Source: Clostridia bacterium (lineage in GTDB: Bacteria > Bacillota > Clostridia > Christensenellales > Borkfalkiaceae). Taken from it: a stretch of 33,461 nucleotides of DNA. A model generated the notes under the pieces. The model searched no databases, was not told where the DNA came from, and saw only the letters and a list, made by a program, of their open reading frames with translations. Location of the stretch: the NCBI GenBank assembly GCA_017624285.1, contig JAGANI010000050.1:1-33461 (forward strand), in the 5' to 3' direction. Shown here piece by piece: positions 5,057 through 31,657 of this stretch (position 1 is the first letter of the stretch; every line of letters begins with the position of its first letter). The translations under genes and the position numbers were made by a program.

Positions 5057-5084
5057 TTGTTTTTATGCAATTTTGTTATATAAT
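5057..5084 (+). promoter_or_regulatory. Promoter of the first glycyl radical enzyme operon
   Basis: TTGTTT (5057-5062), 16-base spacer, TATAAT (5079-5084). The expected start near 5091 leaves a leader of about 20 bases carrying GAGGG before ATG 5113. The promoter overlaps the in-frame ATG at 5065, which argues against that upstream start. Confidence 0.6.
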
Positions 5085-5112
5085 TAAATTAACATTTATT
5101 TTGAGGGTTTAT

Positions 5113-7275
5113 ATGCAAAAGTTTGATTTTAATAATAAAAGCCTAATAAATCAATACGATAATATAACTTATATTGAAGATAGTGGCGTTTCTTTTGAAG
5201 AAATGACTAAATTTTATAGCGATTTAATGCAAAGTGATAACGGCGATAACCATGACTTAATAAAAGCGAATTTATTTGATTACATTTTAACTAACGCTAA
5301 AATTGCAATCGATAAAGAAGATATATTTCAAGAAAAGGTTTTTGACGGGGATTTAATCGGATTACAACGTAAAAAATGGCTTAGCGATATAAAAGACGGA
5401 GTATTAAAAAACGAAACGTTAGAGTGTCTTAACGCCTATAATAAATACGGAAGCTATCGTGCTGAAGAAGATTTAGGTCATACCTCACCAAATACTAAAG
5501 CGTTACTAAAATTAGGCTTTAAGGGGTTAATAAATCGTATCAACGACACAATTGCAAATAAAAAACTTACGATTAAACAAGAAAAATTTTATAATTCTTG
5601 TAAAATTGTACTTAATGCATGTAAAAAACTTGCAAATAGGCTTTCCGACGCAATACTACCTTTTAATAAGGAAAACGCTATTGCCTTAAAAAACATTGCA
5701 AACAGCGCCCCTAATAATATTTACGAAGCCATGCAACTAATTGTTTTATATTTTTTTGCACACGAATACGTTTACAAAACGCGTGTACGTACTCTAGGTA
5801 GGCTTGACGTATTATTATATCCTTTTTATAAAAACGATATTGAAAACGGAATTTATACCAAAGCTGACGTTATCGAGATGTTAAAATACTTTTTTAATAA
5901 ATTTTCATCTGCGAAAGTTCCGTTTGGCTTACCGTTTGCAATTGGTGGTTTAGATGAAAATAAAAACGAAGTTACTAACGAGATTTCTTACTTAATTGTC
6001 GACGTATATAAACAAATGAACATTTATAGCCCTAAAATACATATTAGGGTTTCACCTAAAACACCTGTTGATTTTATCAAAAGGGTTTTAAGTTGCATTA
6101 TAAATGGAAAAAGTAGTTTTGTTTTCATCAATGACACTGTTACCGTAAATGCACTTAAAAAAGTTGGGATATGCGAAAAAGATGCGCTTGACTACACACC
6201 TATCGGTTGTTACGAGCCAGCAGTTTGGGGCAAGGAAATCGGTTGCACCGGTGGCGCAGGTGTAAATTTGGTTAAAGCTGTTGAATACGTGCTTTCTGGT
6301 GGATATGACGTTTTAACTGGGGATTTTTGCACATTTAAACCAGCTGTAATTAATACTTACGAAGATTTTTATAATGAAGTAAAAAAACAAATTAAGTTTT
6401 TAACCGACAAGTGTATTGATTACGTAAATACTATTGAAAGATATTACAGTTATTTAGGACCTGATAGTATGCTTTCTGCACAATACGATGATAGCGTTAA
6501 AAACGGTATCGACGTTTTAGAAGGCGGCGCTACGTACAATAATACTTCACTTAACTTTTACTCTTTAGCAAGTTTAGTCGACTGTTTATCTGTTGTTAAA
6601 GAATTTGTTTTCGATAAAAAAATAATTACGCTAACTGATTTATTTACTATACTTAAAAACAATTGGAAAAACAACTTAAACTTAAGATCTAAAATCTTAA
6701 AATATAACGCTAAATATGGTAACGAAAACGCCGTTGCGGATAAAATAACGATAGACGTTACCCGTTATTTAGCTAGTATTGTTAATAACCGAAAAAATAG
6801 CCGTGGTGGTGTTTACAAAGCATCTTTATTTACTATTGACACATGTTTTTACTTTGGTAAACGTACTTTTGCGACACCTGACGGGCGCTTACAGGGCGAA
6901 ACTTTATCTAAAAACTTATGCGCTAGCTTAACTATGGATAAAAACGGAATATTATCGCTTATCAATTCTGTTACAATTTTTGACCATAGCGATTTCCCAA
7001 ACGGTTCAGTTTTAGACGTTGTTTTACACCCCTCAAACGTTAGTGGCAACGACGGGTTAAACGCTTTTTATGGCATTGTAAAAACCTATTTTGATAAAGG
7101 AGGTTTTTCGATACATGGTAACGTATTTAATGCTGATGAACTTAAAAAAGCACAACAAAACCCCGAAAAATATACTAATTTACAAGTCAGAGTTTGTGGT
7201 TGGAACGCATACTTTGTTAACCTAACCAAACAAGAACAAGATGCCTTTATTACACAGGCAAACCACGTATCTTAA
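5113..7275 (+). CDS. Glycyl radical enzyme of the pyruvate formate-lyase superfamily, divergent
   Basis: A 720-residue glycyl radical enzyme (GRE). I chose ATG 5113 because GAGGG stands six bases upstream, while the earlier in-frame ATG at 5065 lies inside the promoter. The active-site thiyl motif is IGCYEP (Cys366, Glu368), followed by a GKE-rich segment. The C-terminal radical loop is RVCGWNAYF (Gly696), with 24 residues after the glycine. The Cys-x-Glu pair is the pattern of GRE dehydratases, lyases and decarboxylases, not the Cys-Cys of true pyruvate formate-lyase. The usual RVxGY is RVxGW here. At 720 residues it is shorter than arylacetate decarboxylases (about 900). The activase gene follows immediately. 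The substrate is unknown. Convergence with an arylacetyl-CoA operon is suggestive only. Confidence 0.85.
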   Translation: MQKFDFNNKSLINQYDNITYIEDSGVSFEEMTKFYSDLMQSDNGDNHDLIKANLFDYILTNAKIAIDKEDIFQEKVFDGDLIGLQRKKWLSDIKDGVLKNETLECLNAYNKYGSYRAEEDLGHTSPNTKALLKLGFKGLINRINDTIANKKLTIKQEKFYNSCKIVLNACKKLANRLSDAILPFNKENAIALKNIANSAPNNIYEAMQLIVLYFFAHEYVYKTRVRTLGRLDVLLYPFYKNDIENGIYTKADVIEMLKYFFNKFSSAKVPFGLPFAIGGLDENKNEVTNEISYLIVDVYKQMNIYSPKIHIRVSPKTPVDFIKRVLSCIINGKSSFVFINDTVTVNALKKVGICEKDALDYTPIGCYEPAVWGKEIGCTGGAGVNLVKAVEYVLSGGYDVLTGDFCTFKPAVINTYEDFYNEVKKQIKFLTDKCIDYVNTIERYYSYLGPDSMLSAQYDDSVKNGIDVLEGGATYNNTSLNFYSLASLVDCLSVVKEFVFDKKIITLTDLFTILKNNWKNNLNLRSKILKYNAKYGNENAVADKITIDVTRYLASIVNNRKNSRGGVYKASLFTIDTCFYFGKRTFATPDGRLQGETLSKNLCASLTMDKNGILSLINSVTIFDHSDFPNGSVLDVVLHPSNVSGNDGLNAFYGIVKTYFDKGGFSIHGNVFNADELKKAQQNPEKYTNLQVRVCGWNAYFVNLTKQEQDAFITQANHVS

Positions 7276-7276
7276 T

Positions 7277-8164
7277 ATGAAAGCAAATATTTTTGAAATT
7301 AAACATTTTGCCGTACATGATGGTGACGGAATACGTACTACACTTTTTATTAAAGGCTGTCCACTTAAATGCGCGTGGTGTCATAATCCCGAAGGACTTT
7401 CCGTAAAAAGCGAACTTGCATTTTTAAGTCATAAATGTATAAATTGTGGCGAGTGTGTAAACGTTTGCAACTTTAATGCCCACTCCATTTTAGATGGTAA
7501 ACACGTATATAGCCGTAAAACTTGCATGACTTGTGGTGATTGTGTAGACGTTTGCCCAGAAGATGCCCTTAAACTTTACGGTATAACTTACAGTGCCGAC
7601 GAACTATTACCACTTTTATTAAAAGATAAAGATTTTTATAAAAACTCTAACGGTGGCGTAACAATTTCTGGTGGCGAATGTTTAACCCAACCTGATTTTT
7701 GTGAAAAACTTTTAAAAAGTCTAAAAGAAAACGATATACATACCGCCGTAGATACTTGCGGGTTTGTTAATAAAAACGCACTAGATAAAGTAATACCATA
7801 TACTGACGTATTTTTGTACGACGTAAAAGCAATAGACAACGACGTACATATTAAATGCACAGGACAGAGTAATAAAATAATACTTGAAAACTTACTGTAT
7901 CTTGATAGTAAAAATTGTAAAATAGAAATTAGATATCCATACGTACCAAACTATAACGATACGGAAGTAGATAAAATTGGTGAATTTTTATCAAAACTTA
8001 AAAACGTTACTAAAGTAAAAGTATTACCGTACCATAACTTAGCGGGATCAAAATATACTTCACTTGATTTAAAAAATACTTTACCATTTGTTTTACCAAA
8101 CGATGAACAAATTTTACACGCTAAAAAAGTTTTATCTTCATACGGGTTAAATGTTGTTGATTAA
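7277..8164 (+). CDS. Glycyl radical enzyme activase (radical SAM)
   Basis: A 295-residue radical SAM enzyme that should install the glycyl radical on the preceding GRE. The SAM-cluster motif is GCPLKCAWC (Cys28, Cys32, Cys35). Two ferredoxin-like motifs, CINCGECVNVC and CMTCGDCVDVC, lie at about residues 57-100, as in activases of non-PFL GREs. The GGVTISGGE segment is typical of the family. The start at 7277 is one base after the GRE stop, and no clear ribosome binding site is visible, so translation is probably coupled to the GRE. An in-frame ATG at 7241 would overlap the GRE and lacks family similarity. Confidence 0.9.
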   Translation: MKANIFEIKHFAVHDGDGIRTTLFIKGCPLKCAWCHNPEGLSVKSELAFLSHKCINCGECVNVCNFNAHSILDGKHVYSRKTCMTCGDCVDVCPEDALKLYGITYSADELLPLLLKDKDFYKNSNGGVTISGGECLTQPDFCEKLLKSLKENDIHTAVDTCGFVNKNALDKVIPYTDVFLYDVKAIDNDVHIKCTGQSNKIILENLLYLDSKNCKIEIRYPYVPNYNDTEVDKIGEFLSKLKNVTKVKVLPYHNLAGSKYTSLDLKNTLPFVLPNDEQILHAKKVLSSYGLNVVD

Positions 8165-8242: not shown

Positions 8243-9430
8243 CTATTGTTTATATTCTTTTGCTAAAGCTTCAAACGCTGGTAAAGAGTTGATAATTTTG
8301 TCTTTATCGACACAATATGCAATTCTGACGTAGCCTTTTACACCAAAATCATCACACGGGACTACTAAAATTTCCTTTGATTTAGCCTTTTCAAAAAACT
8401 TATATGCATCTTCTTCTAAAGCTTTAACAAAAAGATAAAACGCGCCGTCGGGTTTAACGCAATTATACCCAAACTTAGTAAGGTTATCGTATAATATATC
8501 ACGATTTTCTTTATAAACGTTTACGTCAACCTTAGCGTTAATACATTTTTTAACCACTTGTTGGAACATACTTGGCGCACAAACGTAGCCCAGCGACCTG
8601 CCAGCACCACAAATTGCCAGATATAAATCTTTAGCGTTTACTGCTTTAGGATTTACTGCAATATAACCGATACGTTCGCCTGGTAGTGAAAGCGCTTTAG
8701 AGTAAGAATAGCATACAATAGTGTTATCGTAATAATTCATTAAATACGGCACTTTTACGTCAGCGTAAACTAATTCCCTATAAGGCTCGTCAGCAATTAA
8801 ATAAATAGGATGGTTAAATTCTGCTTGCTTTTTATTTAATACGTTGCAAACGGCTTTAATAGTATCTTCACTATAAACAACGCCACTTGGGTTGTTTGGA
8901 GAATTTATTATTACAGCCTTAGTATTTACGTTAATTTTACTTTCAAAATCATCAATATCGATTTGGAAAGTCTTTTCTAGCGGGGTTGAAACAACTACTT
9001 TACCTTGTGCGTTTTCAATAAATACTCTATATTCTGTAAAAAACGGTGCAAAAACGATACATTCATCCCCATCGTTAAAGGTCGCTTTTAGCGAAATTGA
9101 TAATGAAGCCGCAGCACCGCAAGTCATATAGATATTGTCAGGAGTAAGAGATAAATTAAATTTAGCGTTGATATCGTCACTAATAACTTTTCTAACAGAA
9201 AAATCGCCCTGCGCAGAAGTATAACCGTGTAATAAAACGGAATTTTCGTTTAAATTAAGATCGTTAATAGCATTTTTAATTTCAACAGGTGGTTCAACAC
9301 TAGGGTTACCTAAACTAAAATCAAACACCTTATCCGCACCGATTTCTGCACTACGGATTTTACTATATTCAAAGATTTCTCTTATAATTGAACGCTTGCT
9401 ACCTAAAGCATACATTTTTTTGTTAATCAT
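8243..9430 (-). CDS. PLP-dependent class I/II aminotransferase
   Basis: A 395-residue fold-type I aminotransferase of the aspartate aminotransferase family. The PLP lysine is Lys245 in YSYSKALSLPGERIGY. NSPNNPSG and the DEPYREL segment are the usual cofactor-binding motifs. ATG is preceded by AAGGAG with good spacing. It is the last gene of the aromatic operon, ten bases after the amidohydrolase. From that context its likely job is to interconvert arylpyruvates (phenylpyruvate, 4-hydroxyphenylpyruvate, indolepyruvate) and aromatic amino acids. Specificity cannot be read directly, and an aspartate or alanine type enzyme is possible. Confidence 0.85.
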   Translation of the reverse strand: MINKKMYALGSKRSIIREIFEYSKIRSAEIGADKVFDFSLGNPSVEPPVEIKNAINDLNLNENSVLLHGYTSAQGDFSVRKVISDDINAKFNLSLTPDNIYMTCGAAASLSISLKATFNDGDECIVFAPFFTEYRVFIENAQGKVVVSTPLEKTFQIDIDDFESKINVNTKAVIINSPNNPSGVVYSEDTIKAVCNVLNKKQAEFNHPIYLIADEPYRELVYADVKVPYLMNYYDNTIVCYSYSKALSLPGERIGYIAVNPKAVNAKDLYLAICGAGRSLGYVCAPSMFQQVVKKCINAKVDVNVYKENRDILYDNLTKFGYNCVKPDGAFYLFVKALEEDAYKFFEKAKSKEILVVPCDDFGVKGYVRIAYCVDKDKIINSLPAFEALAKEYKQ

Positions 9431-9439
9431 ACTTACTCC

Positions 9440-10249
9440 TTAAAGATCTAAAAGTTTTACGGCATTTTTATATAAAATTTTATTTTCAACATCTACAGGT
9501 AAACAAAAACTCTTAATAATATTTATATCTGATAAAGCATAACTCCACGGGGAATCCGTTGCAAATAGAATTTTATCTTCACCATGCTTATTTAATATTT
9601 TGATAAACATAGCTTTATCTATATTTTTAAGCATAAATGCCGTATCAAAGTATAAGTTTAATCCTGATAAATGATTATAAACTTCATCAAAAAGCTCGTT
9701 ACCACCAAAATGCGCCAACACTAACTTATCATATCCACCTAATTTATCTAAAGCATTTAACACCCTTTTGGGCGTACAACGTACTTCCCCAGTATAGGCA
9801 TTATCAACACCCGCGTGTGTTACGGTAATTAAACCATGCTTTTTTGCTAACGATAATATTTTAACGTTTTTAGGGTCGTCAATAAAAGTTTGTTGATACT
9901 CTGGATGGATTTTAATACCTTTAAAACCTGCTTTTTTTATTTTGATAAAAGCGCCTTCTAAATCTTCAATATCTGGATGAATACCACAAAACGGCAATAT
10001 ACGTGTGTCGCCATTTTTAAAATTAGATAAAACTTCACTAGCAAAGTTAAAAACGCTTTCAAACTGGGTAGGCTTAGTTAAAACGGGTAACGTTACACTA
10101 ATATTTACGCCTGAATCTTCCATATTTTTTAATAAGCCTGACAAAGTTCCGTCAGAATACGGCTTTACCGATGCGCTATTTGCCAACGCATCCACCGTTT
10201 TAGAAGCTATTTTATCTGGAAAAACGTGCGTATGAAAATCTATAACCAT
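9440..10249 (-). CDS. Amidohydrolase-related metal-dependent hydrolase or decarboxylase
   Basis: A 269-residue TIM-barrel protein of the amidohydrolase-2 / ACMSD-like family. Metal-site motifs are in order: DFHTH at the N-terminus, KIHPEYQ, THAG, HFGG and a late ATDSPW with the expected Asp. Members of this family hydrolyse amides or esters or decarboxylate aromatic acids, so the reaction is open. It starts five bases after the ACT gene and has only a weak ribosome binding site, so translation is probably coupled. It sits inside the aromatic operon between the ACT protein and the aminotransferase, which implies an aromatic or amino-acid-derived substrate. Confidence 0.75.
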   Translation of the reverse strand: MVIDFHTHVFPDKIASKTVDALANSASVKPYSDGTLSGLLKNMEDSGVNISVTLPVLTKPTQFESVFNFASEVLSNFKNGDTRILPFCGIHPDIEDLEGAFIKIKKAGFKGIKIHPEYQQTFIDDPKNVKILSLAKKHGLITVTHAGVDNAYTGEVRCTPKRVLNALDKLGGYDKLVLAHFGGNELFDEVYNHLSGLNLYFDTAFMLKNIDKAMFIKILNKHGEDKILFATDSPWSYALSDINIIKSFCLPVDVENKILYKNAVKLLDL

Positions 10250-10254
10250 TTTAA

Positions 10255-10683
10255 TTATAACTTAGAAATATCTTCCCCAGATAAAGTATCAATACCGTTT
10301 TCAGTTAAAACGGTGGTTGCTTTTATGGTATCTGACGTCTTTAACACAATTGATGCTGAAGCGCCTTCAACCGATAAACCATACATATACTCAATACTGA
10401 TATCTGCATCAGAAATAATTTTAAGGAACTTTTGCAAACTACCTGTTTCATGAGTAATTTTAATAATTACTACGTCTGAAAGTAATGCGGAAAAACCTTC
10501 TTTTAAAAGTGTATCCTTGCCTAATTCTGGATTATTTACAATAAGTCTTAAAATACCATATTCCGTGGTATCAGCTAAACTTATTGATAAAATATTAACG
10601 TTATTATTTTTTAACACGTCTAATACTTCACCAAGTCTGCCTTGTCTGTTTTCAATAAAAACTGATAATTGTTTTACTACCAT
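10255..10683 (-). CDS. Tandem ACT-domain protein
   Basis: A 142-residue protein made only of two ACT-type modules: residues 1-68, beginning VKQLSVFIENRQGRLGEV with the usual Gly-Arg-Leu turn, and residues ~72-140. ACT domains bind amino acids. Stand-alone double-ACT proteins commonly accompany phenylacetate-CoA ligase and indolepyruvate oxidoreductase genes. AAGGGGG precedes the ATG. It probably senses an aromatic amino acid and modulates the ligases or oxidoreductase, but no target can be seen in the sequence. Confidence 0.8.
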   Translation of the reverse strand: MVVKQLSVFIENRQGRLGEVLDVLKNNNVNILSISLADTTEYGILRLIVNNPELGKDTLLKEGFSALLSDVVIIKITHETGSLQKFLKIISDADISIEYMYGLSVEGASASIVLKTSDTIKATTVLTENGIDTLSGEDISKL

Positions 10684-10694
10684 AATTTGCCCCC

Positions 10695-12563
10695 TTAATA
10701 TAATTTACGTTTATCCGTTACGTGAACGGCTTTACCTTCACTTCTTTTTAAAGTGTTAGGTTGTACAAGTGTAATTTTTGCACTTAAACCCAATGCTTGT
10801 TGAACAACGTGACCTATCTTTTTAGTGAGTTTTTCAATACCCTTGATTTCATCAGTATAGAATTTAGGATCAATTTCAACTTGAATTTCAAGCGTGTCGA
10901 GATTGTTTACCCTATCAACTATCATCATATAGTGAGGGGTAACTTCTTCCACGTCAATAAGTGCTGCCTCGACTTGACTCGGGAATACGTTTACGCCACG
11001 TATAATAAGCATATCGTCAGACCTGCCTTTAAAGCGTGAAATACGAACGGAAGTTCTACCACACTCGCACTTATCGTAACTAATACTAGTTAAATCTTTT
11101 GTTCTATATCTAATAAGTGGTAAACCCTGCTTTGTTAAGGTGGTGAAAACAAGTTCACCAGTTTCACCCTCGGCAACAGGTTGCAAAGTTGCACTATCTA
11201 CAATTTCTGGATAGAAATGGTCTTCACAAACGTGTAAACCTTGATGATACTCACAATCACATGCAACACCAGGCCCCATGACTTCACTTAAACCATAAAT
11301 ATCATATGCTTTGATGTTTAACTTGCTTTCGATTTCCTTGCGCATTTTTTCAGTCCAAGGTTCTGCACCACAAATTGCACTTTTAAGCTTAATTTTGTCT
11401 AAAAGATTTTCTTCTGCTAATACTTCGGAAATATGTAATAAGTAAGAAGGTGTACATGCAATTGCCGTTGCGCCGAAGTCAACCATCATGGTAGTTAACT
11501 TTTTAGAGTTACCAGTACTCATCGGAACAACCATCGCACCTATTTTTTCAGCACCACCGTGCGCACCTAAGCCACCGGTGAATAATCCGTAGCCATACGC
11601 AATTTGAACGATATCGTTTTTATCAACACCAGCCATAGAAAAGCATCTTGCAACGCATTCTGCCCAAATTTCTAAATCGTCCCTAGTGTAACCAACTACC
11701 GTTGCCTTACCAGTAGTACCAGATGAAGCGTGGATTCTAACTATATCCGAGTGTGGTACTGCAAATAAACCAAAGGGATAATTATCTCTTAAATCGTCCT
11801 TAGTGGTAAAAGGAAGTTTAACGATATCTTTGATATCTTTAATATCAGAAGGTTTAACACCCACTGCATCCATTTTTTTACGATAAAACTCAACGTTATT
11901 GTAAACGTAATCTACTAGTTTTACAAGTCTTTCGCTTTGAAGGAGTGTTACGTCTTCTCTAGACATGCACTCAATTTCTTTATTCCAAATCATAAATACC
12001 TCGTATTTATTATAGCCTGCTAAAAATGCTTTTTTGTTAATTTCAATAGTTTTTGGGGGAACTGTTTTTTCTACCATAGTAAGCCAGTCTTCTAAAGTAA
12101 AGCCAATGTGCTTAGCTGAAAAGCCCAAAACTACCGAGTTAAGAACTTTACTATTGCCAAGTTCTTTAGCGACGGATAATCCATCTATTGAGTAAACTTT
12201 ATGGGATTTAATTAAATCTTCAATGATATTTTCAGGATAAGACTTTGCACCCGTAACGACGGTCATAGGGTCGATACGACAATCGTTAATAATAATTACA
12301 CCGTCTTTTTTTACATAATGTGCGTATCTTAAAGCTTCTAGTCTTTCAAATGAAATTAATACGTCTACGCTACCTTCTTCAGCGATAGGCTCGTAAACCT
12401 TATCGCCAAAACGAACGAAAGTAACAACGCTACCACCACGTTGCGCCATACCGTGTACTTCGGAAAGTTTTACGTCGTAACCTGCGTCAAGTGCGGTTTT
12501 ACCGATAATCCTACTAGTTAAAAGCGTACCTTGACCACCAACACCAACTACCATAATATCCAT
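10695..12563 (-). CDS. Fusion: indolepyruvate oxidoreductase beta subunit + phenylacetate-CoA ligase
   Basis: A 622-residue in-frame fusion. Residues 1-190 are the IorB/gamma-type subunit (VGVGGQGTLLTS near the N-terminus, then VHGMAQRGGSVV). Residues 191-622 are a complete phenylacetate-CoA ligase: HASSGTTGKATVVGYT (AMP/phosphate loop), YGLSEVMGPGV, RYRTKDLT, and a C-terminal LKRSEGKA with the catalytic Lys. The join falls where IorB normally ends. ATG 12563 is chosen over an in-frame GTG at 12572 because the AGG-containing ribosome binding site suits the ATG and would overlap the GTG; the iorA stop lies one base upstream. An internal ATG at 11993 with GAGG five bases upstream could make the 432-residue ligase alone. 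Together with iorA it should interconvert arylpyruvates and arylacetyl-CoA. Confidence 0.85.
   Translation of the reverse strand: MDIMVVGVGGQGTLLTSRIIGKTALDAGYDVKLSEVHGMAQRGGSVVTFVRFGDKVYEPIAEEGSVDVLISFERLEALRYAHYVKKDGVIIINDCRIDPMTVVTGAKSYPENIIEDLIKSHKVYSIDGLSVAKELGNSKVLNSVVLGFSAKHIGFTLEDWLTMVEKTVPPKTIEINKKAFLAGYNKYEVFMIWNKEIECMSREDVTLLQSERLVKLVDYVYNNVEFYRKKMDAVGVKPSDIKDIKDIVKLPFTTKDDLRDNYPFGLFAVPHSDIVRIHASSGTTGKATVVGYTRDDLEIWAECVARCFSMAGVDKNDIVQIAYGYGLFTGGLGAHGGAEKIGAMVVPMSTGNSKKLTTMMVDFGATAIACTPSYLLHISEVLAEENLLDKIKLKSAICGAEPWTEKMRKEIESKLNIKAYDIYGLSEVMGPGVACDCEYHQGLHVCEDHFYPEIVDSATLQPVAEGETGELVFTTLTKQGLPLIRYRTKDLTSISYDKCECGRTSVRISRFKGRSDDMLIIRGVNVFPSQVEAALIDVEEVTPHYMMIVDRVNNLDTLEIQVEIDPKFYTDEIKGIEKLTKKIGHVVQQALGLSAKITLVQPNTLKRSEGKAVHVTDKRKLY
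11991..12002 (-). promoter_or_regulatory. Internal ribosome binding site and start codon at the IorB/PaaK joint
   Basis: Reading the minus strand, GAGG-TATTT-ATG lies inside the fused ORF, and the ATG is in frame. Translation from it gives 432 residues beginning MIWNKE. The separate paralogue at 14304-15602 is also 432 residues and begins MIWSKQ. This looks like the original start signal of a formerly separate gene. Confidence 0.7.
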
Positions 12564-12564
12564 A

Positions 12565-14304
12565 CTACACACCTACCTTTTCGATTGCATCGAATTTACA
12601 ATAGTTTTTACATAACCCACAGCCGTTACACATTGTTTCGTCAATCTTAATAGTGCCATCGGGTTGTTTTGTTAAAGCGGGACAACCAATCTTTAAACAA
12701 GCACCACACTTTTTGCATTTATCGGGATCAGCTTTACACTTAAATGGGAATTTTTGACCCTTTAAAAGTGCGCAAGGAGATTTTGCGATAATAACGTAAA
12801 GCTCGTCACTTTGGGTTGCTGTTTTAACACCAGTCTCCATAGTTTTAACGTCGAAAGAATCGATTTCTAAAACGTTTTTAACACCTATTGCGTGGCAAAG
12901 TTGTTTTAGATCGATTGCATAAGTGTCTTCACCCTGTAAAGTTTTACCAGTAGCAGCGTGTTCTTGATGGCCAGTCATACCGGTAGTTCTGTTGTCTAAA
13001 ATAATAACGGTTGCAGTAGACTTATTGTATACCATGTTGATAAGTGAATTTACACCAGTGTGTAAGAAAGTAGAATCACCTATAACCGCTACCCAGTTTT
13101 TAATATAATCTTTACCTTTAGCCTTTTCGATACCATGTAATGCTGAAATACTTGCGCCCATACAAATACAAGTATCAATAACGCTTAAAGGTGCTACAGC
13201 GCCTAAAGTATAACAACCGATATCCCCCGAGGCGTGTATCTTTAACTTACTTAACACGGAGAAAACGCTTCTATGTGGGCAACCGGGGCATAAAATCGGA
13301 GGACGATTAGGAACGTCTGCCTTATCAAACACAACGTCGTCTTGACCAAAAAGCACCTTTTTTAAAAGATTTGCGCTATATTCACCTTGTTTAGTGAAAA
13401 GCTCTTTACCCTTAACTTTTAAACCCCAACTTTCAATTTGTTCTTGAATAACAGGTTCAAGTTCTTCAAAAACGTAAACGGTTTCCACCTTAGAAACGAA
13501 GTCTTCGATAAGTTTTTTTGGCAAAGGATTTATCATCCCAAGTTTTAACACGCTTGCATTAGGACAAACCTCTTTAACGTACTGGTAAGGTATGCCACTG
13601 GTAATAAAACCGATTTTAGTATCGTTAAGTTCAACTTTGTTAATAGCAAAATCCGAGCAATCGTTTTGAAGTGCAATTTCTCTAGCTTCAACCACTTTAT
13701 GTCTTGCAATAGCCGATGCCGGCATCATAACGTGTTTTGGCACACTACGCTCGTAAACCTTATCTTCTACTTCAATCCTATCACATAACGAAACTACACT
13801 TTGTGAGTGTGATAATTTAGTAGTGGTCCTTAATATAACAGGTGTATCGTACTTTTCGCTAATTTCGTAAGCGAATTTAACAAAATCTTTTGCTTCTTGG
13901 CTATCGGACGGCTCTAAAAGTGGTACGTGCGCGCTACGCGCAATCATACGGGTATCTTGCTCGTTTTGCGAGCTAGCTATACCAGGGTCATCTGCAACGA
14001 CTAACACGAAACCACCGTTTACACCAATATAAGATAAGGTATAAAGTGGATCACTTGCAACGTTTAAACCAACGTGCTTCATACAAGCAAGGCTTCTTAC
14101 ACCAGAAATTGAAGCGCCTGCAGCAACCTCTACGGCAACTTTTTCGTTAGGCGCCCACTCGGTATAAACTTCACTATATTTAGCAAGAACTTCGCTAATT
14201 TCAGTACTCGGTGTACCAGGATATGCGCTTGAAACCTTTACACCTGCTTCATATACACCGCGAGCAATAGCTTCGTTACCAAGCATTATCTTTTTATCTT
14301 CCAT
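12565..14304 (-). CDS. iorA: Indolepyruvate:ferredoxin oxidoreductase alpha subunit
   Basis: A 579-residue subunit with the usual IorA layout: pyrimidine-type TPP domain at the N-terminus (SAYPGTPSTEI), pyrophosphate-TPP domain near residues 340-450 (CPGCPHRS, GDIGCYTLG, VIGDSTFLHTG), and two C-terminal 4Fe-4S motifs (CKKCGACLKIGCP and CNGCGLCKNYC). It converts arylpyruvates plus CoA to arylacetyl-CoA, CO2 and reduced ferredoxin, reversibly, together with the IorB part of the next gene. The start ATG overlaps the stop of the upstream ligase by one base (TAATG), with AAGGAG upstream. Confidence 0.95.
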   Translation of the reverse strand: MEDKKIMLGNEAIARGVYEAGVKVSSAYPGTPSTEISEVLAKYSEVYTEWAPNEKVAVEVAAGASISGVRSLACMKHVGLNVASDPLYTLSYIGVNGGFVLVVADDPGIASSQNEQDTRMIARSAHVPLLEPSDSQEAKDFVKFAYEISEKYDTPVILRTTTKLSHSQSVVSLCDRIEVEDKVYERSVPKHVMMPASAIARHKVVEAREIALQNDCSDFAINKVELNDTKIGFITSGIPYQYVKEVCPNASVLKLGMINPLPKKLIEDFVSKVETVYVFEELEPVIQEQIESWGLKVKGKELFTKQGEYSANLLKKVLFGQDDVVFDKADVPNRPPILCPGCPHRSVFSVLSKLKIHASGDIGCYTLGAVAPLSVIDTCICMGASISALHGIEKAKGKDYIKNWVAVIGDSTFLHTGVNSLINMVYNKSTATVIILDNRTTGMTGHQEHAATGKTLQGEDTYAIDLKQLCHAIGVKNVLEIDSFDVKTMETGVKTATQSDELYVIIAKSPCALLKGQKFPFKCKADPDKCKKCGACLKIGCPALTKQPDGTIKIDETMCNGCGLCKNYCKFDAIEKVGV

Positions 14305-15602
14305 TATAAACTCCTTAAATCCTTAACTCTTTTTGCCTTACCCTCAAACCTTTGTAATGTGTTTGGAGACTCTAACTTGATTTTTGCATCAAGACCAAGG
14401 ATAATCCTTAACTTATTTTTAACCTTCTTTGAAATATTTTCAAGTTCGGTAAACGAGTCGGTTGCTACGTTTAACTCTACCCTAACGGTAAGTTTATCGG
14501 CGTAACCTTCTCTTTCGACAATAATTTCGTAATGAGGTCCTAATTCCTCCACACTAAAGATGACTTCTTCAATCTGACTCGGGAATACGTTAACACCACG
14601 TATTTTAAGCATATCGTCCGACCTACCAGAAAGGTTGTCCATCCTAACGGTTGTACGACCACACTTACAAGGCGCGTAATTAAGCCTTGTAATATCTTTA
14701 GTTCTATATCTAATAAGGGGTATCCCCTCTTTTTTGATACAAGTTATAACGAGTTCACCCTTTTCACCCTCGGGCAATACTTCGCCTGTTTCTGGATTGA
14801 TGATTTCTGGTAAAAAGAAATCTTCATTAATATGCATACCATCTAAATACTCGCACTCACCAGACACACCTGGGCCAACAAGTTCACTCATCCCATAGTT
14901 AGAAGTAACAAGCATATCGTCACCCCAATATTTATGCATTTCAGCACGCATAGCATCGGTTAAAAGTTCACTACCAACAAGACCTATTTTAACTTTTAAG
15001 TCCTTTTTAGGATCGATACCCATTTCTCTAGCGACTTCCGCTAGACGTAGTGCATAAGAAGGCGTTGCAACTAATAAAGAAGTTTCAAAATCCTTCATAT
15101 ACATAATTTGTTTTTCAGAGTTACCAGTTGATGAAGGTACTATGGTTGCGCCGATATTTTCAAGACCGTAATGCAAACCTAAAGCGCCGGTAAACATGCC
15201 GTAACCAAAACATATTTGAGCGACGTCTTTTTCAGTAGCGCCACCCATACACGCTATACGTGAAACACACTCCGTCCACATATCCATATCGTTTTTGGTA
15301 TAACCCACAACGGTAGGTTTACCAGTCGTACCTGAAGACGCGTGTATACGCAATAACTTATCTTTACTAACGGCAAATAAACCGAAAGGATAGTTATCCC
15401 TCATATCTTGTTTAGTTGTAAAAGGCAACTTTTTTAAATCGTCAAGTGATTTAATATCTTCAGGCTTAAGACCGACTTCATCCATCTTAGCCCTATATGG
15501 TGGAACGTTTTCGTACACCCTTTTAACGGTTTCTTTTAAACGCGATAGTTGCAATTTTTGCATTTCTTCTCGAGGTAAAACCTCTTGTTTAGACCAAATC
15601 AT
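14304..15602 (-). CDS. paaK: Phenylacetate-CoA ligase (AMP-forming)
   Basis: A 432-residue adenylate-forming ligase: HASSGTTGKPTVVGYT near residue 90, YGMSELVGPGV, RYRTKDIT, RSDDMLKIRGVNVFPSQIE and a C-terminal LQRFEGKAKRV with the catalytic Lys. It activates phenylacetate or a related arylacetate with ATP and CoA. It is a close paralogue of the ligase half of the fusion at 10695-12563. The two may have different arylacetate preferences or be a recent duplicate. It lies 21 bases after the symporter stop and overlaps iorA by one base. Confidence 0.92.
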   Translation of the reverse strand: MIWSKQEVLPREEMQKLQLSRLKETVKRVYENVPPYRAKMDEVGLKPEDIKSLDDLKKLPFTTKQDMRDNYPFGLFAVSKDKLLRIHASSGTTGKPTVVGYTKNDMDMWTECVSRIACMGGATEKDVAQICFGYGMFTGALGLHYGLENIGATIVPSSTGNSEKQIMYMKDFETSLLVATPSYALRLAEVAREMGIDPKKDLKVKIGLVGSELLTDAMRAEMHKYWGDDMLVTSNYGMSELVGPGVSGECEYLDGMHINEDFFLPEIINPETGEVLPEGEKGELVITCIKKEGIPLIRYRTKDITRLNYAPCKCGRTTVRMDNLSGRSDDMLKIRGVNVFPSQIEEVIFSVEELGPHYEIIVEREGYADKLTVRVELNVATDSFTELENISKKVKNKLRIILGLDAKIKLESPNTLQRFEGKAKRVKDLRSL

Positions 15603-15623
15603 TATAACTCCTAAAATTAATTA

Positions 15624-17165
15624 TTAAATTACTTCGTTTTCGATAGGTTTATCGAAAGCATTATATAAGACCTCTTCCTTGGGTGCTTTAGTAAATAACG
15701 TTACGATTGTTGTGATTATTAACGAGAAAATCATACAGATTACGCCAATCATCGGGGATTGCCCAACACCTGATTTAAGCGCGTCGCCAATAGTACAATT
15801 CCAACCATTTACATCGTAACCGAATATAAATATTAAAGCAACGGTTAAAACTAACGAACTAATAATCGAACTCCATACAGCAGGTTTTGTAACCTTTTTC
15901 CAAACAAGACCTAATACGTATGGACCCATAAAACAACCTGCTAACGTACCCCAGCTAATACCCATCATATAAGCTATAGCCGCAACCTTATATTCTTGAT
16001 TGATTATTGCAAGCGCTACTGAAATCGCTATAAAAATTAAGCACAGTATACGCATCGTAAGGTTAACTTTTTTATCACTAGCATTTGGATTAATTTTACC
16101 CTTGTAAATATCAACTGCAACTACCGATGCACTAGCTAAAGAAACAGACGATAACGTTGACATACTTGCTGATAAAATTAAAATAGCAATAATACCAATT
16201 AAACCCGTTGGGATAACAATTTTTAGCATATTAGGGATAACGTCATCTGCAACAAGCGTAGCAGTTTCTGTAAAGAAGTGCGATAATGCGCCTGTAAAAT
16301 AAGCACCAAAACCAATTATTAACGCAAAAAGCGTGCTAACAATCATACCCTGATTAATAGCTTTTTTATCCCTAATAGCGTAGTACTTATGTATCGTTTG
16401 TGGTAACGCCCAAACACCAAAAGAAGTTAATAATACTAAAGATAAAAGCGACATAGTATTACCATATAAGCCTGTGTTTTGCGATTTAAATGTAAACCAA
16501 GTAAGTTCAACGTCGTTAGCAATTTTAGATAAATCCCAAGAAACGTTTTTGTGATTCATAAAACAAAAAACCATCAAAACAACGCCAATAAGCATTATTA
16601 TACCCTGTATAAAATCCGAAAGCGCTGTTGCAAAATAGCCACCAAGGAATAAATAAAACGCAGTTATTAACGCAAGAGCAATCATAACAACCCAACCAGG
16701 TATACCAAAGACGATTTCAAACAAACTGCTTAAACCGTTGTAAACCGATGCTGAATACGGAATTAGGAAAATAAAAATTATAATTGCCGTAACTAATTTT
16801 AAGTTTTTTGAATCATATCTTTTTTCGAAAAAATCAGGCATGGTTTTAGATTGTAACCTAGCCGTCATGTTTTTAGTACGTTTTGCTAAAACCTTCCATG
16901 CAAATAATGACCCAATTATAGCGTTGCCGATACCAATCCAAACAGCTGCTAAACCGTATAAGCGACCAAAATTACCAGCGTAACCTATAAAAATTACTGC
17001 TGAAAAATACGTGGTGCCGTATGCAAAAGCACTCATCCATCCATTTAAACCATTTTTACCTGCTAATAAAAAATCATTAACAGATTTTGAACGATTACGG
17101 CAATATAAAGCTATAATAACCATACCTACGGCATACAAGCCCAAAATAACGTAGTCTAACCACAT
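15624..17165 (-). CDS. Sodium:solute symporter (SSS family)
   Basis: A 513-residue polytopic membrane protein with about 13 hydrophobic segments and the SSS signature region near residues 25-60 (SVNDFLLAGKNGLNGW, then AYGTTYFSAVIFIGYAG). The start is ATG 17165 with GGAGG seven bases upstream. An in-frame ATG further upstream (17195) would lie within the terminator stem. As first gene of the aromatic operon it is likely to import an arylacetate or similar aromatic carboxylate with Na+. The substrate is inferred from context only. Its leader carries the attenuator described at 17166-17327. Confidence 0.9.
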   Translation of the reverse strand: MWLDYVILGLYAVGMVIIALYCRNRSKSVNDFLLAGKNGLNGWMSAFAYGTTYFSAVIFIGYAGNFGRLYGLAAVWIGIGNAIIGSLFAWKVLAKRTKNMTARLQSKTMPDFFEKRYDSKNLKLVTAIIIFIFLIPYSASVYNGLSSLFEIVFGIPGWVVMIALALITAFYLFLGGYFATALSDFIQGIIMLIGVVLMVFCFMNHKNVSWDLSKIANDVELTWFTFKSQNTGLYGNTMSLLSLVLLTSFGVWALPQTIHKYYAIRDKKAINQGMIVSTLFALIIGFGAYFTGALSHFFTETATLVADDVIPNMLKIVIPTGLIGIIAILILSASMSTLSSVSLASASVVAVDIYKGKINPNASDKKVNLTMRILCLIFIAISVALAIINQEYKVAAIAYMMGISWGTLAGCFMGPYVLGLVWKKVTKPAVWSSIISSLVLTVALIFIFGYDVNGWNCTIGDALKSGVGQSPMIGVICMIFSLIITTIVTLFTKAPKEEVLYNAFDKPIENEVI

Positions 17166-17181
17166 AGTAATGCCTCCAAAT

Positions 17182-17203
17182 AAAAAAACCGCCATAAGGC
17201 GGT
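17182..17203 (-). terminator. Leader terminator (attenuator) before the aromatic operon
   Basis: On the minus strand, ACCGCC-TTAT-GGCGGT is a perfect 6-base GC-rich stem with a 4-base loop, followed directly by six Ts and then TTTGGAGG, the symporter ribosome binding site. It lies between a consensus promoter and the first gene, so it can only act on the operon's own leader. A GCGGT at 17222-17226 could pair with ACCGC at 17199-17203 and break this stem. Confidence 0.8.
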
Positions 17204-17242
17204 ATGTGAATAATTAAAAAAACCGCGCAAAATTAAAACGAA

Positions 17243-17296
17243 TTATCTTTTAAAATTAAAAAAATAAACGTAATAATTTGTGCAATAATATAACAT
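17243..17296 (-). CDS. Tyr/Phe-rich leader peptide of the aromatic operon
   Basis: An ORF of 17 codons plus TAA encodes MLYYCTNYYVYFFNFKR: five Tyr and three Phe. AAAGGA stands ten bases before the ATG. It starts about 25 bases after the expected transcription start of the promoter at 17328-17356 and ends 40 bases before the leader terminator. This placement and composition match leader peptides of the phe and trp type, where stalling at codons for scarce amino acids prevents termination. AT-rich DNA favours Tyr and Phe codons, so composition alone is not proof. The ORF is supported mainly by its position between promoter and terminator of an aromatic operon. Confidence 0.7.
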   Translation of the reverse strand: MLYYCTNYYVYFFNFKR

Positions 17297-17327
17297 ACAA
17301 TATTAATCCTTTTAAAATATATAAATA

Positions 17328-17356
17328 ATTATATATTTATAAATATAATTTGTCAA
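17328..17356 (-). promoter_or_regulatory. Consensus promoter of the aromatic operon
   Basis: Minus-strand TTGACA (17351-17356), exact 17-base spacer, TATAAT (17328-17333). Both hexamers are perfect. The transcript would begin near 17321, giving a leader of about 155 bases before the symporter. Confidence 0.85.
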
Positions 17357-17717: not shown

Positions 17718-17746
17718 TTGCAATTTGTTTATAAATGTAATAAAAT
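17718..17746 (+). promoter_or_regulatory. Promoter of the GNAT-like acyltransferase gene
   Basis: TTGCAA (17718-17723), 17-base spacer, TAAAAT (17741-17746). The expected start near 17753 gives a 20-base leader with GAGGA before ATG 17773. Confidence 0.6.
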
Positions 17747-17772
17747 ATATAAAAACATTTTTTGAGGATTTT

Positions 17773-18642
17773 ATGTTTACTAGTTTTTGCAAAAAAATCG
17801 ACTTTCCTATTGAGGCGATAGAGTATTTAGCGCCCATAGACTTTAATTTGCGCCAAAATGCAAAATCGTTAGAAAAAATTGAACTTTCAAGCAATTATAT
17901 CAGACATAATGAGTATAAAAAAGCTGAGGAAACTCTTAAAGAATTAGAAGCGCAAGTTAATATTAAAATTAATACGCTTTGGGTTATAGTTTTAGTAGAT
18001 GCAGCAATTAAAAGTTACGACCTATATAAACAAAACGGCATATCTGACGAAGTTTATATCGATACAATGAAGGATATTACTTATAAACTTAACGAGGGCA
18101 AAAAAGTTGAAAACAATTGGGGAATTTTTGTTGCGTACTGGTACCCTATGTTTTTTACTTGCGATCGTTTTAAATTAGGTAGACTTCAGTACGAAAGGCG
18201 CTTATCCCCTATCGATTATAAAGGTATTGTAAAAAAAGATGATTTAATTTTTGCATGTCATATACCATCGTGTGGTCCACTATATAAACAAGACGTTATT
18301 GATTCACTTAAAAAAGCTTACGATTTTTACAATATTAAAAAAGGAAATTATCTAGTAGTTACCTGCCACTCTTGGTTGCTTTATAAGCCTTTGGTTGATT
18401 TATTTAAAGAAGGCTCTAATACTAAGGATTTTTACGACATGTTTGACGTGTTTGACCATCACGAATCTGACCTAAAAATAGACGGTTGGCGTATATTTTA
18501 TACGATGGATTTATCAAATCTTAACAATTTACCAGAAGATACTTCGTTGCAAAAAAACATTAAAAACTACCTACTATCTGGCGGTCATATGGGTTCTGGT
18601 TTAGGTATGTTGGTGTTTGATGGTGAAAAGATTATAAAATAA
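17773..18642 (+). CDS. GNAT-like acyltransferase-domain protein
   Basis: A 289-residue soluble protein. ATG 17773 is chosen because GAGGA lies just upstream; the in-frame start 48 bases earlier falls inside the promoter. The N-terminal half is helical. The C-terminal half carries features of the acyltransferase family with a GNAT-like C-terminal domain: FKLGRLQYERR near residue 136, HIPSCGPLYKQD near 162, and a later HSWLLYKP. I assign the family from this pattern with moderate confidence; substrate and role are unknown. It has its own promoter and terminator, so it is monocistronic, between the aromatic operon and purine genes. Confidence 0.6.
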   Translation: MFTSFCKKIDFPIEAIEYLAPIDFNLRQNAKSLEKIELSSNYIRHNEYKKAEETLKELEAQVNIKINTLWVIVLVDAAIKSYDLYKQNGISDEVYIDTMKDITYKLNEGKKVENNWGIFVAYWYPMFFTCDRFKLGRLQYERRLSPIDYKGIVKKDDLIFACHIPSCGPLYKQDVIDSLKKAYDFYNIKKGNYLVVTCHSWLLYKPLVDLFKEGSNTKDFYDMFDVFDHHESDLKIDGWRIFYTMDLSNLNNLPEDTSLQKNIKNYLLSGGHMGSGLGMLVFDGEKIIK

Positions 18643-28695: not shown

Positions 28696-29538
28696 TTATA
28701 ACACTTTAACGGGGATGCCGTTATCAGTAAATACGTTTGTTAAAATTTTTTCTGGTTTAGAAAAATTTTCTGTAAAAACTTTACCATACATTGGGTATTT
28801 TGCAGGTGCAAGCGTGTTATATGGTAAAAGTTCCACCCCTACTAAATTACCACCTTTTACAAATTTGGCAGTATTAAGTAGATTATCAAAATCATCGTTA
28901 ACGTCATTAATTAAAGGAATCCTAACTATAAAAGGCTTACCTAAGTCTTGTAGTAAACGCAAGTTGGTTTTAATTATAGCGTTATCCACACCTGTATAAA
29001 ATATATGTTTATTGCTATCAAAAACTTTAAAATCTATATAAACTTTACTAAGCTTATTGACTATTTTTTTAAAAACGTCGCTTTTAGCATAGGCGGAAGT
29101 TTCTATCATTGATTTACCTTTTACGCCATCTAAAACGTCAGATAAAAACTCATACTGTAACAACGGTTCTCCTCCAGAAAAAGTTATCCCACCATCGTTA
29201 TTAAAGAATATTTCATACCCGTTAAGTAGCTCGATTAATTCGGTATCAGAATACTTTTTACCTGAAATCGAACGTAAGTTTTGAGGACATAAATTTACGC
29301 AATCACCACAACCAATACACTTGGAATTTGATAAAACAGCGCATGACGTGGTACGGCATTTTCCACAATGAAGGCAATTTGCCACCTTTACCATTACTTC
29401 GGGATTAATATCAAACCCCTCGGGATTATGACACCATTTGCACCTTAATGGACAGCCTTTTAAAAAGACCGTTGCGCGCATACCGTCACCGTCGTATATA
29501 GAAAACTCCTTAATATCAAAAACAGTACCGTAAGACAT
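28696..29538 (-). CDS. Glycyl radical enzyme activase (radical SAM)
   Basis: A 280-residue radical SAM activase. The SAM-cluster motif is GCPLRCKWC (Cys29, Cys33, Cys36). Two ferredoxin-type motifs follow, CLHCGKCRTTSC and CIGCGDCVNLCP, the first with a one-residue longer last gap than usual. GGITFSGGEPLLQ is typical. AAGGAT precedes ATG 29538. It lies downstream of the GRE gene, separated by a 46-base gap with a stable hairpin, and should activate that enzyme. Confidence 0.9.
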   Translation of the reverse strand: MSYGTVFDIKEFSIYDGDGMRATVFLKGCPLRCKWCHNPEGFDINPEVMVKVANCLHCGKCRTTSCAVLSNSKCIGCGDCVNLCPQNLRSISGKKYSDTELIELLNGYEIFFNNDGGITFSGGEPLLQYEFLSDVLDGVKGKSMIETSAYAKSDVFKKIVNKLSKVYIDFKVFDSNKHIFYTGVDNAIIKTNLRLLQDLGKPFIVRIPLINDVNDDFDNLLNTAKFVKGGNLVGVELLPYNTLAPAKYPMYGKVFTENFSKPEKILTNVFTDNGIPVKVL

Positions 29539-29557
29539 AATTTATCCTTTAAGTTAA

Positions 29558-29578
29558 AGGCCGTAAAATATACGGCCT
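29558..29578 (-). terminator. Intercistronic hairpin between GRE and activase
   Basis: A perfect 8-base stem AGGCCGTA / TACGGCCT with a 5-base loop, followed by TTAACTT but no long T run. It may act as a partial terminator or an RNA-end stabiliser that lowers activase output relative to the enzyme. Confidence 0.5.
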
Positions 29579-29584
29579 AAATTT

Positions 29585-31657
29585 TTATAATGAGTAATCT
29601 GCCCTTAAAATAACTTGATCTTGATAACATTTATCAAGTTCAACAAAATAGCCACTCCAACCCCAAACCCTAACAATAAGGTTTCTATACGCTTCTGGGT
29701 TTTGTTGCGCTTTGATAAGTTCAGACTTATTTATTACGTTAAGTTGAAGTTGATGCCCACCAAGTTTAATGAAATTTTCAACTAAAAGCGCCAACTTTTC
29801 AACACCCGTATCGCTATTAACAGATGAAGCAGTAAACTCAAACGTAGCTGGGCCACCGTTTATATTATTGCTTAAATCAGGTTTAGTTAAAGATTTAACA
29901 ACTGATAATGGACCTTTTGTTTTAATAGTAATAGACGGGGTATAGTTTGCAGGTAAAAAGTCGCATTTTTTTCTACCGTCGGCACTTGCTGTGTAATCGT
30001 TACGCGTGGAACTTACAACGTAACAGTTAGCACTACCCGTACCCGCCCTGCAAATACCATTTCTTGAGTTTTTGTACGCTAAGCAAGCGTCTGAGTGGGC
30101 CTTTAACAACCTACTTGCAATAGCGTCTATATTATCAATACCGTTGCCGAATTTTTCAGTATAATTTACTAATTTATTACGGAACTCGTCATTGCCAGCA
30201 AAATCTTTTTGTAAAACATCTAAATAATCTTTAGCGCTGATTTCTTTAGTTTCATTAACAAAGTGATTAAAGCAAGAAATTGAATCTACCGCATTACCTA
30301 AACCAAAGCCGTGTTGACCGTAGTTGTTATATTTATTACCTAAACTGATATCTTTAGCTTCTTCTATGCAACCATCAAACATTAAAGACATAAACGGTGC
30401 AGGAACTAAATAGATATCGTAAACTTCGTCTAAAAGGACTTTAGTATACTCTTTAACTTCTTGCTCTACCGCCGAAGTAAGTTCATCTATATTTTTACAA
30501 GATTCCCCATACTTATTAATTGCGTTATTAGCACAAATAACGTACGACATAGCAGAAATATTTACGGTTTCCATACCAACACCGGGGATAATAAACTCCC
30601 AACAAGCAGCAACACAGTAGTTGTGAGCATCAGCCTTATCATAACCTAATTTTATTAAACCAGGTATAACGATATCGTCGTTAGAATATTGTGGAAAACC
30701 TAAACCAATAGTTGTTAACTTAGATGCAAATAACAACCTTTCTTTAGGTGTGGTTTTATTTACACGTAAATTGATTTTTGGATCGATAACTTTTAACTCG
30801 TAACTAGCTTTTATGCAAAGTTCTGAAAGTAAATTATAGGTATCGATGCCGTTTTCGTCATAACCACCAAGCATAATACTTTGACCATTATCGCCCTGTT
30901 GTAAGCCTGGGTAAAGATCGGTATCTTTGTTGCAAGAAATAAAGAAATCTTCTAATACCTCTAAAGCAGTTTCGTTTGTTAATACCCCGTTATCCAAGTC
31001 TTTTTTAAGATACGGATACATCATTTGGTCAAATCTACCTAAAATAACGTGATACTCACCTTCAACCCAAATACAAAAATGGATAATCCTTAAAAATTGT
31101 AATGCTTGTTTAAAAGTCTTTGGTGCGTAAAAAGGCACAACACATAAATCTTGATAAATATCAAGATAACCTTGTTTTAAAGCTTCTTCTTTATATCTTA
31201 AAGCAAAATCAACAATAGCGTTAAGCGTAATAAGCTCAATCTCATAAAACTCTTTATCTTGTTTTTTAGCGTTAGATAAACGTGTTTTTACTTCATCAAT
31301 CAATGCATAAAGACCTTTAGACATTATCTTTTGATAATCAGGTGCAATATTTGTTACAAAACCTTTTTCATGTATATATTTACCAGTTGCTCTAATCGAA
31401 TCAAACTCCTCTTCACTTAAAACTGGTGGTAAAGCGGGTAAAGTTCTAGTAAAGGCAATACGTTCTTCAGGTAAAAATACAGGAACTTCCTTACTTAAAA
31501 ATAGTTCAAACCTTTTAGCGACACGCATAGCATGCGAAAGATTTTTATCCCTATAAGTGGAAATATCTATATTATTAAAAACATCTTGGCTTTGCCTTAA
31601 TGCAAAATGTTTGTGATCAACTATATAATTTCTTAAACGAGACATCCTTTCGGTCAT
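29585..31657 (-). CDS. Glycyl radical enzyme of the pyruvate formate-lyase superfamily, Cys-Trp-Glu type
   Basis: A 690-residue GRE. AAAGGAGA stands eight bases before ATG 31657. The thiyl motif is AACWEF (Cys352, Glu354) followed by IIPG. The radical loop is RVWGWSGYF (Gly666), 24 residues from the C-terminus. The Cys-x-Glu pair argues for a dehydratase, lyase or decarboxylase rather than pyruvate formate-lyase. It differs clearly from the GRE at 5113-7275 outside the two motifs. Neighbours are its activase, nagBA downstream and a glycerol-1-phosphate dehydrogenase-like gene upstream. Substrate unknown; a phosphorylated or amino-sugar-derived polyol is one context-based guess. Confidence 0.87.
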   Translation of the reverse strand: MTERMSRLRNYIVDHKHFALRQSQDVFNNIDISTYRDKNLSHAMRVAKRFELFLSKEVPVFLPEERIAFTRTLPALPPVLSEEEFDSIRATGKYIHEKGFVTNIAPDYQKIMSKGLYALIDEVKTRLSNAKKQDKEFYEIELITLNAIVDFALRYKEEALKQGYLDIYQDLCVVPFYAPKTFKQALQFLRIIHFCIWVEGEYHVILGRFDQMMYPYLKKDLDNGVLTNETALEVLEDFFISCNKDTDLYPGLQQGDNGQSIMLGGYDENGIDTYNLLSELCIKASYELKVIDPKINLRVNKTTPKERLLFASKLTTIGLGFPQYSNDDIVIPGLIKLGYDKADAHNYCVAACWEFIIPGVGMETVNISAMSYVICANNAINKYGESCKNIDELTSAVEQEVKEYTKVLLDEVYDIYLVPAPFMSLMFDGCIEEAKDISLGNKYNNYGQHGFGLGNAVDSISCFNHFVNETKEISAKDYLDVLQKDFAGNDEFRNKLVNYTEKFGNGIDNIDAIASRLLKAHSDACLAYKNSRNGICRAGTGSANCYVVSSTRNDYTASADGRKKCDFLPANYTPSITIKTKGPLSVVKSLTKPDLSNNINGGPATFEFTASSVNSDTGVEKLALLVENFIKLGGHQLQLNVINKSELIKAQQNPEAYRNLIVRVWGWSGYFVELDKCYQDQVILRADYSL

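Follow-up and report, generated by a model that had tools for sequence, protein, structure and literature searches.

A Tyr/Phe-rich leader peptide and terminator suggest ribosome-mediated attenuation of a putative aryl-acetate salvage operon in gut Clostridia

In the enteric pheL and trpL attenuators (of the Yanofsky type), a leader ORF rich in codons for the end product is combined with mutually exclusive 1:2, 2:3 and 3:4 pairings and with a terminator that precedes the first biosynthetic gene. The usual view of low-GC Gram-positive bacteria is that T-boxes, TRAP or repressors control their amino acid genes. Classical attenuation is already known in some Firmicutes as well: the ilv-leu operon of Staphylococcus aureus has a leucine-rich attenuator peptide for which ribosome-mediated control has genetic support (PMC5794164), while histidine attenuators have been predicted by comparative genomics in the Bacillus cereus group, Peptostreptococcaceae and Erysipelotrichales (PMC9413887). 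A comparative study from 2005 noted no classical attenuation for Firmicute aminoacyl-tRNA synthetase genes (PMC1262725). Concerning the aromatic amino acids, the uORFC-13-1 motif is described in its text as a candidate uORF that contains one or more Phe codons, accompanied by a promoter, a Shine-Dalgarno (SD) site and a terminator, before aroF (DAHP synthase) of Acholeplasma, its 24 examples coming from Acholeplasma and environmental sequences only (PMC8632094). A second route to these amino acids, from aryl acids, is attributed to Methanococcus maripaludis in work cited in PMC4162585.

The window analysed in this study, a stretch of 33,461 nucleotides, is contig C9 of a 68-contig, 1.45-Mb genome (G000), all 1,451,999 bases of which were scanned. 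An earlier note on this stretch had proposed ribosome-mediated attenuation of an aromatic operon, and the promoter, ribosome binding site, 17-codon ORF, terminator, GCGGT element and 1:2 match that it described are all present in the sequence, on the minus strand:

17328..17356, minus strand: sigma-70-type promoter TTGACA-N17-TATAAT (TTGACA 17356-17351, TATAAT 17333-17328), with 12/12 consensus matches
17307..17313, minus strand: SD site of the leader ORF, AAAAGGA, with the ATG 10 nt downstream
17243..17296 including the stop codon, minus strand: leader peptide ORF MLYYCTNYYVYFFNFKR, 17 codons, of which 5 Tyr and 3 Phe
17274..17283, minus strand: segment 1, GCACAAATTA, within the leader ORF, predicted to pair with segment 2
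17222..17235, minus strand: segment 2, TAATTTTGCGCGGT, which contains TAATTTTGCGC (17235-17225) and the antiterminator strand GCGGT (17226-17222)
17182..17203, minus strand: intrinsic terminator, with segment 3 ACCGCC (17203-17198), loop TTAT, segment 4 GGCGGT (17193-17188) and six T

The promoter is one of 56 in the whole genome that match the consensus perfectly with a spacer of 16-18 nt, and the terminator is directly adjoined by the SD site of a symporter gene, the ATG of which is at 17165. The hairpin, predicted at -10.8 kcal/mol, is the only terminator in the region (shuffle mean 0.1), while the leader RNA is more stable than all 200 shuffles (z = -3.4). Prior to synthesis of the 3' arm, GCGGT of segment 2 is predicted to pair with ACCGC of the terminator in a fold of -6.2 kcal/mol; the duplex between segments 1 and 2 is predicted at -11.3 kcal/mol, as computed over a wider region, and the 1:2 stem is also able to stack beside 2:3 in the window. 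The window antiterminator comprises only 5 bp, starts 16 nt past the stop codon, which is the far end of the set of leaders described below, and does not differ significantly from shuffles in a single-locus comparison (p = 0.14). The window is a weak member of this set and its antiterminator is among the weakest. Since the antiterminator starts so far past the stop codon, a ribosome positioned there would not fully cover it and, because of this distance, the 5-bp length and the p value, the 1:2 hairpin probably matters more in the window than direct covering by the ribosome. A Leu-rich alternative frame from TTG 17300 (LYVILLHKLLRLFF), for which the SD spacing fits, was rejected as it had no counterpart among the leaders of relatives.

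The operon downstream (8243-17165, minus strand), the gene order of which is preserved in relatives, contains:

15624..17165, minus strand: sodium:solute symporter family (SSF) protein, first structural gene (PF00474, E 5e-52)
14304..15602, minus strand: phenylacetate-CoA ligase family (PaaK-like) protein (TIGR02155, 524 bits, under the equivalog cut-off of 646)
12565..14304, minus strand: indolepyruvate ferredoxin oxidoreductase (IOR) alpha, IorA (TIGR03336, 701.6 bits, cut-off 650.9)
10695..12572, minus strand: IorB fused to a second PaaK-like ligase (NF005325, 249 bits, cut-off 230; TIGR02155, 551 bits)
10255..10683, minus strand: tandem ACT-domain protein (PF19571, 1.5e-28)
9440..10249, minus strand: amidohydrolase family protein (PF04909, 1.3e-13)
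8243..9430, minus strand: class I/II PLP aminotransferase (PF00155, 1.4e-49; NF005305, above cut-off)

Both PaaK parts obtain high TIGR02155 scores, yet remain under the PaaK equivalog cut-off, while the scores of IorA and of the IorB part exceed the respective NCBIfam cut-offs. The SSF protein is a probable aryl-acid importer, although we infer its substrate, as we do those of the operon at large. The label of aromatic operon given in the earlier note is refined here to aryl-acetate salvage/biosynthesis, which suits the operon better. In the same stretch, two glycyl-radical enzyme/activase pairs of the PFL2-3 subfamily were observed at 5065-8164 (plus strand) and 28696-31657 (minus strand), both under equivalog cut-offs and one of them directly convergent with the salvage operon; these enzymes may be aryl-acetate decarboxylases. 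An acyltransferase with NAT_N and GNAT_C domains (17725-18642, plus strand) is divergent from the operon.

The upstream regions of symporter homologues were compared in 61 and 398 genomes and in GTDB contigs. At least 13 relatives were found to carry the full module, with a Tyr/Phe-rich leader, before the same operon, examples being MKNFKSFFRYYFYTRV, MFYYFDYYHGYKF, MYYFYPVYEFYYYHLT, MFYFSYYFSFYFRIES, MFYFGYFYYYFYHKIA and MAIMKKYFYGYYFFGYYYFNGVQF, and equivalent promoters lie upstream of the other 12 aligned IOR-operon leaders. Among operon-bearing relatives, nearly every ATG ORF with an SD site before a nearby terminator is Tyr/Phe-rich, and this without any composition filter. In most of the nearest relatives, the symporter is preceded by a bare promoter, the leader being seen once sampling was widened; the only same-genus genome (G001) likewise has a bare promoter and no leader at this operon, and no convincing leader was detected within 700 nt upstream in leaderless relatives. 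The presence of the leader on the symporter tree is patchy, with 9 changes of which at least 5 are forced by well-supported branches, and it has therefore been repeatedly gained or lost. A pattern search (GCGG...ACCGC...GCGGTTTT) in 34 genomes returned mostly ordinary terminators and added little. One genome (G006; L008/L095) has, upstream of its symporter, a GTG leader, MFFSILFYGKFFIEP, whose stop codon lies within the terminator loop; it is possible that this is an inverted arrangement, in which full translation would block the terminator, though it may be a product of chance.

The genome has a sister leader upstream of its biosynthetic operon, DAHPS-tyrA-aroB-aroA-aroC-pheA-aroE/K-aroQ, on contig C58:

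L206 (G000:C58) 5863-5996: sister attenuator, with leader MKLCFNNYFYFYFNTIDSISR and terminator GGTTCTGTA-GTAAA-TACAGGACC-T
L206 6387-14389: complete shikimate/Phe/Tyr operon, downstream of the sister attenuator

All 24 family genomes examined that have this DAHP synthase (24/24) carry a Tyr/Phe-rich leader before it, a count made up of 23 with a called terminator plus the L242 leader MKRTIALNNFYYYAFYFKPNL. Elsewhere in the order, a Tyr/Phe-rich DAHP-synthase leader was found in about 16/27 genomes of other families, with an upstream G+C of 0.34 to 0.57; MKNFSFDAYYFYFKGFYLESPAFGMRG is a GC-rich example, and leaders are retained in upstream regions of 53-57% GC. In the case of the sister leader, the amino acids that would be sensed are those made by the operon downstream, while the direction of the IOR/PaaK operon is a matter that we infer.

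Several further features of the biosynthetic locus were observed. In eight family genomes (L206 6020-6330; L227, L229-L232, L236, L248), 240-470 nt lie between the aro terminator and the DAHP synthase gene, filled by imperfect repeats that are dissimilar between genomes (e.g. TATTACGTCGTTAGGCTTTTTGTAAATATGTAAACTA, which occurs twice in G000). Between antiterminator and terminator, 16/23 family aro leaders retain a TTTTGC(G/T) word, mostly TTTTTGCG, which is possibly a pause signal. A Gut-1 RNA (RF01706) is located at L206 14448-14519, just 3' of the shikimate operon. The anthranilate synthase component I N-terminal domain (PF04715; trpE) was found in 0/27 family genomes, including G000, with 14/14 controls positive, and tryptophan auxotrophy is probable across the family, even though Trp codons are almost absent from the leaders.

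The codon content of the leaders was compared with chance expectation in several ways. A composition-blind search of the whole genome for SD-ORF-terminator-gene modules returned 4, and only the two aromatic operons came out Tyr/Phe-rich, the window leader being highest (47%, 8/17 codons) and the MKLCFNNYFYFYFNTIDSISR leader second (33%). The genome has 179 ATG ORFs that are 14-20 codons long and preceded by an SD site, and a Tyr+Phe content of 47% or more occurs in the window leader alone. Across 36 leaders, Tyr and Phe account for 301/622 codons as against 153 +/- 7.7 in dinucleotide shuffles, a statistic inflated for the family aro leaders, which were first chosen with a 20% Tyr/Phe filter, the salvage-operon leaders being unfiltered; the Tyr/Phe fraction of the 36 is 0.48 in frame and 0.16 in both other frames. 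In the YFYFYF block, the Tyr codons switch between TAT and TAC from genome to genome with Tyr retained, while Phe is always TTT.

Pairing was examined by cross-locus permutation on 47 leaders, in which the pairing of each locus with itself was compared with that of swapped loci. The 2:3 pairing, of the stretch that follows the stop codon with the 5' half of the leader's own terminator, is stronger than with swapped terminators in the salvage set (p = 0.002), the family biosynthetic set (p = 5e-5) and the other families (p = 0.001), and the 1:2 pairing, between the leader ORF and the stretch after its stop codon, is locus-specific in the salvage (p = 2e-4) and family biosynthetic (1e-4) sets. 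The two overlap on the antiterminator strand in 45/47 leaders and are mutually exclusive in these. Across the sets, the median distance from the stop codon to the start of the antiterminator strand is 2-6 nt, which would put this strand under a terminating ribosome. The cross-locus swap is the sensitive test of the antiterminator, single-locus shuffles being weak (median p of 0.11 in the salvage set). Each listed leader is accompanied by a terminator between its ORF and the first gene, and the set displays the hallmarks of classical attenuators, namely an SD site with a Tyr/Phe-rich ORF, a terminator, a set-wide 2:3 pairing and an exclusive 1:2 pairing. Anatomy, conservation and co-evolution are seen directly here: on alignment of relatives, the check that had been suggested, the short ORF is conserved, its Tyr/Phe runs are retained and the arms co-evolve, while in the proposed 1:2, 2:3, 3:4 scheme both of the first two pairings fit their own locus better than a swapped one. 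This comparative evidence supports the attenuation reading of the earlier note.

Based on these sequence comparisons, the window leader very probably acts as a ribosome-mediated transcription attenuator, one that senses how much charged tRNA-Tyr and tRNA-Phe is available and switches the operon on in shortage. In the mechanism proposed, which deduces translation, stalling, readthrough and termination efficiency from the leader's anatomy, scarcity of either charged tRNA would cause a ribosome to stall in the Tyr/Phe run and thereby keep segment 1 off segment 2, so that the free segment 2 (GCGGT) could pair with the terminator's 5' arm (ACCGC), and transcription by RNA polymerase would continue into the operon. 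With both charged tRNAs plentiful, the ribosome would reach the stop codon and segment 2 would be either covered or held in the 1:2 hairpin; segment 2 being unavailable, the terminator would form and transcription would end near 17182. The operon products would then import aryl-acetates, PaaK would activate these to aryl-acetyl-CoA, and IorAB would carboxylate the latter reductively to aryl-pyruvates, from which transamination would yield Phe and Tyr. Induction in Phe/Tyr shortage would be a biosynthetic logic that this operon has in common with the genome's shikimate/Phe/Tyr operon. The latter carries the sister leader, which argues that scarcity of Phe and Tyr turns expression on, and assimilation is therefore the best reading of the IOR/PaaK operon. 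The notion of a genome devoid of the shikimate pathway and dependent on the salvage operon was ruled out (chorismate synthase 48/49, prephenate dehydratase 43/49); these enzymes being present, the aryl-acetate route would be a second and not the sole route.

It is unlikely, but conceivable, that the same attenuator serves a catabolic operon in which Phe and Tyr are degraded to aryl-acetates, with the leader doing something else, for instance mediating induction when the amino acid is in excess, in the manner of tnaC and tryptophan. In favour of this alternative are the reversibility of the IorAB reactions, the oxidation of aryl-pyruvates as a known route of fermentation, and the full shikimate/Phe/Tyr operon of the genome, with which salvage is not strictly needed. 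The same leader type, however, precedes the biosynthetic operon in this genome and almost throughout the family, and a symporter in first position and two ATP-spending PaaK-like ligases are in keeping with uptake and activation. Furthermore, the long plain runs of Tyr/Phe codons, in leaders otherwise free to vary in sequence, fit stalling that depends on tRNA charging and not a specific arrest peptide.

That the 5' UTR holds a plain constitutive or protein-controlled terminator, and that the Tyr/Phe ORF is a chance product of AT-rich DNA, is an explanation that is very improbable and already strongly disfavoured. TAT and TTT are indeed common by chance in such a region, as the earlier note had cautioned, and the same-genus G001 manages without the module, but the concern does not hold as an explanation: Tyr/Phe content is 48% in frame but 16% out of frame, the window leader stands alone among the 179 comparable ORFs, and the 1:2 and 2:3 pairings co-evolve. 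Since leaders are retained at an upstream G+C of up to 0.57, with Tyr/Phe kept at 53-57% GC, AT-richness does not account for these codons. Control of the terminator by a T-box or riboswitch, through binding of a tRNA or a metabolite, is extremely improbable. T-boxes are common in these genomes, with 4-11 matches in each of ten, but the 140-nt leader has no room for one, and those of this genome lie elsewhere, contigs C9 and C58 being free of T-box matches, and neither the window nor the surroundings of the shikimate operon matching RF00230. No Rfam family, Phe_leader and Trp_leader included, reached its gathering score in the window, and the window leader itself gave only unrelated chance-level matches (E up to 5).

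It is fairly probable that an order-wide clostridial regulon exists in which one Tyr+Phe leader design governs both de novo synthesis and the rebuilding of aromatic amino acids by IorAB/PaaK from the aryl-acetates of other gut microbes. An order of uncultured gut Clostridia appears to use classical leader-peptide attenuation for aromatics and T-boxes elsewhere. The leader is informative about an operon whose direction is unreadable from its enzymes, as control by Tyr/Phe shortage argues that IorAB and PaaK are assimilating. If this is true, recycling of phenylacetate-type compounds would predict cross-feeding in the herbivore gut, and the leader would provide a sequence criterion separating salvage IOR operons from operons for aromatic amino acid fermentation in gut Clostridia.

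A Tyr+Phe, order-wide clostridial leader set appears to be undescribed in the open literature searched, which yielded neither a clostridial Tyr+Phe leader nor one for an IOR operon, subscription papers, including a 2010 attenuator survey (Mol. Biol. 44:128, cited in PMC4833913), being outside the scope of the search. The predicted histidine attenuators share with it the leader peptide, terminator and antiterminator in Firmicutes, but have His codons, the his operon and other lineages; S. aureus ilv-leu is likewise an amino acid operon in a Firmicute, but senses Leu and differs in operon and lineage. The M. maripaludis pathway is similarly a second route from aryl acids, but is archaeal, and leader-peptide control is undescribed in the account that cites it. 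Going by its text description, uORFC-13-1 has Phe only, whereas the clostridial set has a Tyr run and a second target operon. Neither sequence kinship nor a match to an Rfam leader model links the clostridial leader to the enterobacterial phe and trp leaders. The clostridial leaders nevertheless share with those attenuators the layout of ORF, exclusive pairings and terminator, and differ from them in a mixed Tyr+Phe run without Trp and in having an aryl-acetate/IOR operon as one of their targets.
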